A DNA stretch of 64,000 nt from Sphingosinicella sp. LHD-64 (GTDB lineage: Bacteria > Pseudomonadota > Alphaproteobacteria > Sphingomonadales > Sphingomonadaceae), in assembly GCF_031157375.1 (NCBI RefSeq), contig NZ_JAVIFV010000003.1, forward strand, positions 248,001 through 312,000. The letters are read 5' to 3'. Shown here piece by piece: positions 26,692 through 53,002 of this stretch. Position 1 is the first letter of the stretch, and each line of letters begins with the position of its first letter. The notes beneath the pieces are model-generated. The model did no database searches. It saw nothing but the letters and a program-made list of their open reading frames with translations, and was not told where the DNA came from. A program made the translations under genes and the position numbers.

Positions 26692-26775
26692 CGTCACCCT
26701 GAACTTGTTTCAGGGTCCAGCTGGCCATCCGTCCGGGCGGTGGAAGCCTGGATGCTGAAACAAGTTCAGCATGAC
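26692..26775. repeat. REP-like element, CCTGAAC family, copy 1
   Basis: Outer arms CGTCACCCTGAACTTGTTTC and GAAACAAGTTCAGCATGACA are imperfect inverted repeats around CAGGGTCCAG and CTGGATGCT. Nearly the same element in the same orientation lies at 28627-28712. Confidence 0.8.
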
Positions 26776-28626: not shown

Positions 28627-28712
28627 CGTCACCCTGAACTCGTTTCAGGGTCCAGTTCTCAACCTGCGCCGAGGTCTCCACACTGGATGCTGAAACAAGT
28701 TCAGCATGACGG
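28627..28712. repeat. REP-like element, CCTGAAC family, copy 2
   Basis: Same element and orientation as 26692-26775, with outer arms CGTCACCCTGAACTCGTTTC and GAAACAAGTTCAGCATGACG. It sits just past the 3' end of phhA and may act as its terminator. Confidence 0.8.
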
Positions 28713-28719
28713 TGGAGCG

Positions 28720-29556
28720 TCAGGCCGCCTTTCGCACGTCATCCGCCGCATGCGGATCGAGATCCTCGGTCCCTTCCAGTGCCTCGTAGAGATGGTCGAG
28801 CCCCTCCGACACCGTCTCGAGCAACGCCTCGAAGCTGTCGATGACGAAGTAGCGCGGCTGGAAGCTGTCCGTCCGGTAGCGGGTGCGCAGCACCTGGTTG
28901 ATGTCGAAGCGGGCGCGGTGGGGCACGTCGCTCTCCAGCGAGTAGACGCTCTCGCCGAAGCTGGAGAGGATGCCGGCGCCGTAGATGCGCCGCGCGCCCG
29001 CCTCCATCGTGAGGCCGAACTCGATCGTGTACCAGTAGAGCCGGGCAAGCCGCTGCAGCGTGCCGCCCGCATGCGCCTCGAGGCCGAGCGCGCCGAGATG
29101 CTGGATGAAGTCCGCGGCGACATGGTCGGCGAGGATGGGGACGTGGCCGAACACGTCGTGGAAGACGTCCGGCTCCTCGAGGTAGTCGAGGCTGGTCGCG
29201 GCGCGGATGAAATTGCCGGCCGGGAAGCGGCGGCGGCTCAGATGCTCGAAGAACACCTCGTCGGGGATAAGGCCGGGAACCGAAACCACCGTCCAGCCGG
29301 TGCGGGCGAACAGCCGCTCGTTGAGCTCGTCGAAATCCGGAATGCCGGGCTTGGAGAGCTTCAGCAGGTCGAGGCCTTCGAAGAACTGCTTCACGGCGCG
29401 GCCCTTCAGGCATTCCTGCTGGCGCGCGAAGAGCAGGTCCCACACCCGGTGCTCGACCGGGGTGAACCGCTCCCAATGCTGCGGAATCGTCCAGTCGGCC
29501 GCCGCCCCCAAGGGCGGTTTCGCGGTGTCGAGGCCGATATGGGTATCGGAGGTCAT
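28720..29556 (-). CDS. phhA: phenylalanine 4-monooxygenase
   Basis: 278 residues from ATG 29556, preceded by GGAAGGACCTC. It hydroxylates phenylalanine to tyrosine using tetrahydropterin, oxygen and non-heme iron. Iron ligands are in HDVFGHVPIL (two histidines of the HxxxxH motif) and YTIEFGLTMEAG (glutamate). The pterin region (FIRAATSLDYLEEPDVFHDV) and C-terminus fit the bacterial monomeric enzyme. No pterin dehydratase gene is adjacent. The upstream leader has all parts of a ribosome-mediated attenuator with three Tyr codons, which would raise expression when charged tyrosyl-tRNA is scarce. Confidence 0.94.
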   Translation of the reverse strand: MTSDTHIGLDTAKPPLGAAADWTIPQHWERFTPVEHRVWDLLFARQQECLKGRAVKQFFEGLDLLKLSKPGIPDFDELNERLFARTGWTVVSVPGLIPDEVFFEHLSRRRFPAGNFIRAATSLDYLEEPDVFHDVFGHVPILADHVAADFIQHLGALGLEAHAGGTLQRLARLYWYTIEFGLTMEAGARRIYGAGILSSFGESVYSLESDVPHRARFDINQVLRTRYRTDSFQPRYFVIDSFEALLETVSEGLDHLYEALEGTEDLDPHAADDVRKAA

Positions 29557-29581
29557 GAGGTCCTTCCTTTCGAACACAAAG

Positions 29582-29610
29582 AAAAACCCCGCCCGGAGGT
29601 CCGGACGGGG
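29582..29610 (-). terminator. intrinsic terminator in phhA leader (attenuator 3:4 hairpin)
   Basis: On the minus strand CCCCGTCCGG pairs with CCGGGCGGGG (one G-U pair) over a four-base ACCT loop, then TTTTTC follows. It is a classic intrinsic terminator, placed 26 bases before the phhA start codon, so transcription would stop unless the left arm is captured by the alternative hairpin. Confidence 0.8.
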
Positions 29611-29669
29611 TGCGATCCTGAAACTTGGCTGTTACGCGCGCGTCAGATCGGTCCCGCCCGGGCGGTCCG
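29602..29669 (-). promoter_or_regulatory. phhA leader alternative hairpins (1:2 and antiterminator 2:3)
   Basis: Directly after the Tyr codons, CGGACCGCCC pairs with GGGCGGGACCG (29669-29649), a 1:2 hairpin around a perfect CCGCCCGGGCGG palindrome. Its 3' half, CGGGCGGG (29660-29653), can instead pair with CCCGTCCG (29609-29602), the left arm of the terminator: eight pairs, one of them G-U. The two structures exclude each other, as in trp/phe-type attenuators. Confidence 0.7.
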
Positions 29670-29711
29670 ATAATAATAGACGGTCGAGGCGATCATCGCG
29701 CGCATCGCCAT
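29643..29711 (-). CDS. phhA leader peptide with Tyr-Tyr-Tyr
   Basis: A 22-codon frame from ATG 29711 (20 codons if it starts at ATG 29705), ending VYYYRTARAGPI with TGA at 29645-29643. The three TAT codons occupy 29678-29670, at the base of the 1:2 hairpin. No Shine-Dalgarno is seen. The predicted transcription start lies at about 29705, so the peptide may be translated from a leaderless mRNA, as for trpL in rhizobia. A ribosome stalled on Tyr codons would cover the 5' half of the first hairpin and favour antitermination. Confidence 0.7.
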   Translation of the reverse strand: MAMRAMIASTVYYYRTARAGPI

Positions 29712-29712
29712 A

Positions 29713-29741
29713 AGGATCGGTGAGAAGCGCCGTGCTGTCAA
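29713..29741 (-). promoter_or_regulatory. putative phhA promoter
   Basis: TTGACA (29741-29736) is a perfect -35 box and overlaps the stop codon of the upstream gene. GATCCT (29718-29713), after 17 bases, is a weak -10. Transcription would begin about 29705, at an ATG of the leader frame. The -10 is poor, so this is tentative. Confidence 0.4.
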
Positions 29742-52669: not shown

Positions 52670-52698
52670 TTGACAGGTCTCCTTGCAGCGCGCATTCT
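52670..52698 (+). promoter_or_regulatory. putative metE promoter
   Basis: TTGACA at 52670-52675 and CATTCT at 52693-52698 with a 17-base spacer. The predicted start near 52705 coincides with the 5' end of the riboswitch P1 stem, which supports it. The -10 is weak. Confidence 0.5.
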
Positions 52699-52704
52699 CT
52701 AGGG

Positions 52705-52885
52705 CGTCGAGGTTCTCCGCCTCGTGCGAGCGTGGCGGAGCTAAGACGGGAAGCCGGTGCGAAGCCGGCGCTGCCCCCGCAACTGTAAGCGGCGAGCGGC
52801 GGTCCATATCGAGTCACTGGCGGTTCTACCGTCGGGAAGGCCGGACCGGCGCTGTGACCCGCGAGCCAGGAGACCTGCCTCGGCG
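52705..52885 (+). promoter_or_regulatory. cobalamin (AdoCbl-type) riboswitch of metE
   Basis: The conserved B12 core is present: CGGGAAGCCGGTGCGAAGCC, then GCTGCCCCCGCAACTGTAA, and GAGCCAGGAGACCTGCC. P1 is formed by CGTCGAGG (52705-52712) and CCTCGGCG (52878-52885). When cobalamin is bound, downstream metE expression should fall, so the B12-independent enzyme is made only when B12 is short. The expression platform probably involves 52886-53002, where GC-rich hairpins (such as CCCC-AAT-CGGGG at 52983-52994) come close to the start codon. Confidence 0.92.
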
Positions 52886-53002
52886 CGATAACGTCCTTCC
52901 GGCGGGGTGCCCGGGCAGGTCGCTTGCAGGACCGTCCGGCATCGCCGTGGCGCTCCTGCCCGCGTCCGACCCGGTCGTCCCGCCCCAATCGGGGTAGAAG
53001 AC

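Follow-up and report, generated by a model that had tools for sequence, protein, structure and literature searches.

The window, that is, the whole 64-kb stretch of DNA that was analysed, carries on its minus strand the phenylalanine hydroxylase gene phhA, which is preceded by a short frame with three consecutive Tyr codons and by an intrinsic terminator (Table 1). In the original prediction these parts were taken for a Tyr-codon attenuator, and this is supported by the parts themselves, by their conservation and by the competing helices. Two points of the proposed layout are corrected here: the pause hairpin is conserved only in part, and transcription of the leader probably starts from a promoter that belongs to it.

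Table 1. Features of the phhA leader and its surroundings in the window.
Feature	Position	Strand	Basis or remark
−35 box TTGACA of proposed leader promoter	29736..29741	-	6/6 consensus matches; shares bases with the upstream gene's stop codon
Possible −10 element GATCCT	29713..29718	-	position alone, 3/6 matches; 17 bases past the −35 box
Leader frame MRAMIASTVYYYRTARAGPI + stop	29643..29705	-	Tyr-bearing frame conserved; proposed transcription start at AUG
Three TAT (Tyr) codons, proposed sensor	29670..29678	-	Tyr clusters at equivalent place in relatives
Decoy strand CCGGGCGGG	29653..29661	-	copy of terminator 3' arm; can pair with terminator 5' arm
CCCCGTCCGG, terminator 5' arm and antiterminator partner strand	29601..29610	-	pairing, conservation
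CCGGGCGGGG, terminator 3' arm	29587..29596	-	folding, conservation
T5 run of intrinsic terminator	29582..29586	-	folding / terminator scan
GGAAGGA, likely phhA ribosome-binding site	29561..29567	-	sequence
phhA, phenylalanine 4-monooxygenase	28720..29556	-	TIGR01267 equivalog above cut-off; PF00351
Upstream beta-lactamase-fold gene	end at 29738	-	PF00144

The leader frame comprises 20 codons, from the ATG at 29705 to the TGA at 29645-29643 on the minus strand, and alternative in-frame ATGs lie at 29711, at 29696 and at one more upstream position. The TAT-TAT-TAT run predicted at 29678-29670 on the minus strand is present, and it is the sole occurrence of TATTATTAT in the 64-kb window (shuffle mean 0.00). 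Between the end of the T5 run at 29582 and the phhA ATG at 29556 there is a gap of 25 bases.

A 10-bp terminator with a T5 run had been predicted ahead of phhA. It was found, with a folding energy of −23.0 kcal/mol that was equalled by 1 of 200 shuffles, and its helix is extended by an outer A-T pair (29611/29586). In a 21-row alignment, 95.7% of the cells are paired in this helix (30-64% in slid versions), and compensatory changes are seen at three of its pairs. The predicted antiterminator, a pairing of CGGGCGGG with CCCGTCCG, is possible as proposed, and the helix is kept in relatives, where 81.4% of the cells are paired in the same alignment (29-56% when slid). At its centre, 7 rows have a GC pair, 7 a GU pair and 6 an AU pair, and the pairing is broken in one locus only, L102 (n=21). 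While its covariation score was matched by 9/500 column shuffles, its count of compensatory pairs was matched by 207/500, few of its pairs being variable; the covariation support is therefore real but narrow. In the window and throughout its genus, g1, with L102 as the exception, the antiterminator and the terminator have a strand in common and are predicted to be mutually exclusive. Because of this sharing it is expected that RNAalifold, applied to the alignment, returns the terminator only. The leader as a whole is mildly more stable than its shuffles (z −1.92, 11/200). Locus L089 contains Ns and was left out of the structure counts.

The hairpin placed directly after the Tyr codons (29669-29649) can indeed fold, with −12.6 kcal/mol, but it is unremarkable when compared with shuffles (z −0.93, 39/200). 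Its conservation among the 21 relatives is partial, at 63.4% of cells paired against 33-48% when slid, and five of its pairs are changed on both sides. It was dropped as a fully conserved part of the element.

To describe the distribution of the layout, a detector requiring a Tyr cluster, a stop codon and a terminator was applied to the phhA loci. PhhA was found in 22/26 g1 genomes. With limits that are loose and that were written after leaders had been seen, the detector was positive at 21/22 loci in g1, at 2/2 and 7/9 loci in two further genera with the leader (g45 and g77, respectively), and at 0/125 other phhA loci, namely 0/29 in other TyrA-less genera, 0/19 other loci of the family and 0/77 further loci. 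No positives were obtained in 990 shuffled upstream regions, and on both strands of the window this site alone was detected. The frame with its Tyr codons and the terminator, whose conservation was in question, are thus both kept in all readable g1 leaders (21/22 loci) as well as in g45 and g77, and so are the two competing helices in relatives. The 21 g1 leaders all have a Tyr cluster (YYY, YxYYY, YYxY and similar forms), a tail that encodes the decoy, a stop codon and then the terminator, of which the arm begins 33-39 bases past the first base of the stop codon. The 22nd g1 locus, L089, has Ns across the leader and retains the terminator. Among the other TyrA-less genera, short frames with Tyr codons occur at L189 and L195, but not in this layout.

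For these counts, L084 and L096 were dropped as coming from the same genomes as L002 and L003, and L103 and L104 because they are a copy, with an identical leader, at a contig end of G003; one of 78 further phhA loci was dropped for having too little upstream DNA. Loci L117-L146, which were added by a covariance-model search, stand outside the counts, and the g77 upstream count is given without G168 (weak PDH hit). L103 and L104 lie at the end of contig C1 of G003 and represent a second phhA stretch in two overlapping pieces with different frames, perhaps an assembly overlap.

In g77 the letters are different and the helix, GCGRTGG with CCAYCGC, is kept, with AU for GC in L203 and L205; its covariation score was matched by 38/500 shuffles. 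L175 pairs CGAGGTTGG with CCGACCTCG (read by eye). The helix of L176, L177 and L179 barely overlaps the terminator arm, so that mutual exclusion is no more than a possibility in these loci. The g77 leaders L175, L176, L177, L179, L199 and L202-L205 have a different decoy sequence and no TTGACA box, and several g77 leaders share CCTTC...ATAGG-like bases ahead of the start (by eye).

A covariance model built from the alignment gave hits with E <1e-10 in 11/397 genomes of the family (9 g1, 2 g45), always upstream of phhA. Weaker hits upstream of phhA were obtained in three g77 genomes (2.5e-6 to 9.0e-6), with hits elsewhere equally strong, and weak hits (E ~1e-6 and worse) occurred at many places in the family search. 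Among 289 genomes of the class, E <=1e-6 was reached in the window's own genome only; the model is blind to unrelated Tyr leaders. A search with 4227 Rfam models, which presumably include leader and T-box families, gave no match at the leader with gathering scores. At E up to 10 there were nine weak hits at the leader, all far below the cut-offs and none of them to a leader family.

Comparison of the 23 leaders of g1 and g45 brought out a −35 box. TTGACA lies 35-38 bases ahead of an in-frame leader start in all 23, as an exact match in 19 and with five matches in 4. The score takes the best of several in-frame starts, and among 4600 shuffles treated under the same rule six matches were obtained in 1 and five in 43. 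A consensus promoter scan of the leader region returned none, so that the −35 box emerged through comparison only; the −10 element of the window is weak, and the box was not found in the g77 leaders. By its fixed spacing, TTGACA would put transcription initiation on the leader AUG or no more than a few bases from it. The leader thus probably has a promoter of its own with a start at or next to its AUG, which suggests that the leader peptide is read from a leaderless mRNA; if transcription begins at the AUG, this RNA would be ~124 nt long. At trpL-trpE(G) of S. meliloti the RNA 5' end of rnTrpL has been reported at the leader ATG (PMC7298713, available part), whereas that of the phhA leader is deduced from promoter spacing only. 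For Caulobacter, 375 leaderless mRNAs are given in the available part of PMC4117421.

The original prediction held that the parts are mutually exclusive and spaced as in attenuators, and this was modelled by folding the leader with a ribosome at different positions. For the stalled state the mask covered all bases as far as 11 beyond the opening base of the first Tyr codon, and the score was the energy gained by engaging the terminator 5' arm. Averaged over the 21 g1 loci, it was −11.4 kcal/mol with the ribosome stalled, −1.4 kcal/mol with the ribosome at the stop codon and −7.0 kcal/mol with no ribosome. Stall and stop were at least 3 kcal/mol apart at 20/21 g1, 2/2 g45 and 3/8 g77 loci, L102 being the g1 locus that fails; with the stall placed at the last Tyr codon, 18/21 g1 loci still reached this difference. 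A stalled ribosome is thus predicted to free the antiterminator, and a ribosome at the stop codon to hide it, in 20/21 g1 loci. When the exposed segment was shuffled the mean was −6.7, and 10/21 loci stood out singly, so that the stall signal holds in sum and not locus by locus. The score that the antiterminator retains with no ribosome counts against the model. Since the decoy is part of the coding frame and separates the Tyr codons from the stop codon, one and the same ribosome would expose it when stalled or cover it when at the stop. The switch looks more like such an in-frame decoy arm than one worked by the pause hairpin. The terminator alone is very stable, and antitermination must therefore be kinetic.

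The gene content of the genomes bears on the role of PhhA. A search for TyrA (PF02153) found none in the window's genome, which is 99.98% complete, and none in 17/21 good g1 genomes, with 14/14 controls positive; a search with the TyrA protein of a g1 member again left the window's genome without TyrA. Prephenate dehydratase is present in the window's genome. With the dehydratase present and TyrA not found, phenylalanine should be makeable and PhhA is the probable source of tyrosine, probably the only one in this genome. As part of the attenuator explanation it is very likely that PhhA is biosynthetic here and stands in for prephenate or arogenate dehydrogenase by converting Phe to Tyr. The logic of the original prediction, that PhhA makes Tyr from Phe, is thereby stronger than it was when proposed. 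TyrA is kept in 5/21 g1 leader genomes (G001, G006, G008, G017 and G024). HmgA, an enzyme of tyrosine breakdown, was found in 25/26 g1 genomes, which makes it probable that tyrosine is broken down as well. A switch that responds to Tyr starvation would stop PhhA from feeding degradation when tyrosine is plentiful.

In the family as a whole, 51/397 genomes had no TyrA match, and PhhA was present in 49/51 of these as compared with 297/346 TyrA-bearing genomes (hand tally). The 40 TyrA-less genomes outside g1 were hand-listed from the match table, consistent with the tally of 51, with controls positive in 13/14. Other TyrA-less genera, e.g. g7, g20, g54 and g59, have a divergent phhA in every genome that was inspected, and none of these genes is preceded by a Tyr leader. 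Prephenate dehydratase was not found in g45 and g77 (0/12 genomes), from which we infer that tyrosine is made there from imported phenylalanine. Neither TyrA nor the dehydratase was found in G005, G007, G011, G012, G013, g45 and g77, and phhA with its Tyr leader is kept in them; these are probably phenylalanine auxotrophs, in which imported phenylalanine would be turned into tyrosine.

Starting from the observed parts, their conservation, pairing and spacing, together with TyrA not being found, we consider it very probable that a ribosome-mediated transcription attenuator which senses charged tRNA-Tyr controls phhA. RNA polymerase, we infer, would start on the leader AUG or right beside it, and the leaderless transcript would then be loaded with a ribosome. 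When tyrosine is ample, the ribosome would reach the stop codon and cover CCGGGCGGG, the terminator would form and transcription would end ahead of phhA. When tyrosine is short, the ribosome would stall on the TAT run and leave CCGGGCGGG free to pair with CCCCGTCCGG before the terminator 3' arm is made, and phhA would be transcribed. Several points stand against this model: L102 fails the stall test and g77 passes it at 3/8 loci, the −10 element is weak, TyrA is present in 5/21 leader genomes and HmgA in 25/26 genomes, and 0/29 loci of the other TyrA-less genera have a leader.

A simple possibility is that the hairpin is the terminator of the upstream beta-lactamase-fold gene, that the TAT run is due to chance and that phhA is expressed otherwise. 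Since that gene, which has the same orientation, ends at 29738, some terminator is to be expected hereabouts; the consensus scan, moreover, gave no promoter ahead of the leader. However, in the upstream DNA retrieved per locus the gene stands beside phhA at 2/21 g1 leader loci only (the window and L085). Shared gene order therefore does not account for the conservation of the leader; the Tyr codons, decoy and terminator persist regardless, and a plain terminator needs neither a decoy strand nor a TTGACA at fixed distance. It seems highly improbable that the element is only a terminator of this kind.

It is also conceivable that the leader senses the decoding of Tyr codons, e.g. the queuosine-modified state of tRNA-Tyr, rather than the tyrosine level. 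The pterin-related precursor pathway of queuosine overlaps with the cofactor pathway of PhhA, and the Tyr codons of the 23 leaders in g1 and g45 favour TAT (63 TAT vs 14 TAC) while the adjoining phhA genes favour TAC (54 TAT vs 95 TAC). Since TAT may serve only to keep the stretch free of GC-rich pairing, and since the tyrosine logic suffices for the layout, we regard sensing of this type as very unlikely. Alternatively, the short RNA or the peptide might act mainly in trans, with control of phhA being secondary; products of the S. meliloti trp leader are reported to act in trans, and a leaderless RNA of the length given above would be comparable with rnTrpL (PMC7298713, available part). The peptide body varies widely, however, whereas the features that persist, namely the Tyr cluster, the spacing and the tail encoded by the decoy, suit a role in cis. 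A predominantly trans-acting leader thus appears extremely improbable, and attenuation in response to charged tRNA-Tyr is the explanation that we prefer.

The classical enterobacterial trp, his and phe leaders work by stall-or-proceed attenuation, and the phhA leader is like them in this respect and in its mutually exclusive antiterminator and terminator. It differs from them in that its decoy forms part of the frame, past the sensor codons and ahead of the stop; its separate protector hairpin is only partly conserved, and no Rfam leader family matches it. Ribosome-dependent attenuation via product codons in a short frame is also seen at S. meliloti trpL-trpE(G) (rnTrpL, peTrpL; PMC7298713, available part), with Trp codons ahead of trpE(G) there and Tyr codons ahead of phhA here. 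Putative attenuators have been tabulated at tyrA operons in the available part of PMC1173090. They are likewise proposed for tyrosine synthesis genes, but they sit at tyrA, whereas in the present genome, for which the search gave no TyrA, the element belongs to phhA. In Dyella, Legionella and Echinicola, PhhA has been reported as a tyrosine-biosynthesis enzyme, and according to the available part of that report prephenate/arogenate dehydrogenase was not identified in Dyella and Legionella (PMC7311316). PhhA would supply tyrosine in the present case as it does there, with the difference that a candidate phhA regulator is visible in the sequence here, while the available part of that report gives no account of how phhA is regulated. 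A literature search on attenuation of phhA or phenylalanine hydroxylase and on Tyr-codon leaders, with most subscription papers outside its scope, found none described among the matches listed. The mechanism appears to be of a known kind; its novelty seems to lie in the amino acid that is sensed, in the gene that is controlled and in the link with TyrA loss.

A quick tree of 149 PhhA proteins places the 28 rows of the leader lineage (22 g1 with L089 included, 2 g45 and 4 g77) on one side of one branch with an SH-aLRT of 100; L196-L205 were too short and were left out. The g1 leader genomes that keep TyrA fall in two parts of the PhhA tree. The six g1 TyrA proteins group as one clade (95/95) in a set of 27 rows, 20 of them TyrAs of the family, as expected if TyrA was inherited by descent and lost several times. 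The single branch of the leader lineage, together with TyrA in 5/21 leader genomes, implies that the leader may predate the loss of TyrA. That a sphingomonad lineage first brought phhA under an attenuator responding to Tyr starvation, and that several losses of TyrA followed, is a proposal for and against which we see equal reason. If it is true, the 5/21 g1 leader genomes with both leader and TyrA represent a surviving intermediate state.

Phenylalanine hydroxylase in bacteria is usually described as catabolic. The phhA leader would provide sequence evidence of a bacterial phenylalanine hydroxylase that is run biosynthetically, under tyrosine shortage and not when there is phenylalanine to be burnt, and a Tyr leader ahead of phhA would mark the filling of a tyrosine gap in TyrA-less genomes. 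The leader lineage also allows one to ask whether a change of control preceded the loss of the usual enzyme.

Two other elements were seen in the window. A palindromic element with arms CTGAACTTGTTTCAG, REP- or MITE-like, is present in two copies, 26699-26769 and 28634-28704, of which the second lies directly downstream of phhA; the arm has 4 matches in the window as compared with a shuffle mean of 0.09. A cobalamin riboswitch (RF00174, 124.1 bits) was found at 52693-52896 on the plus strand.
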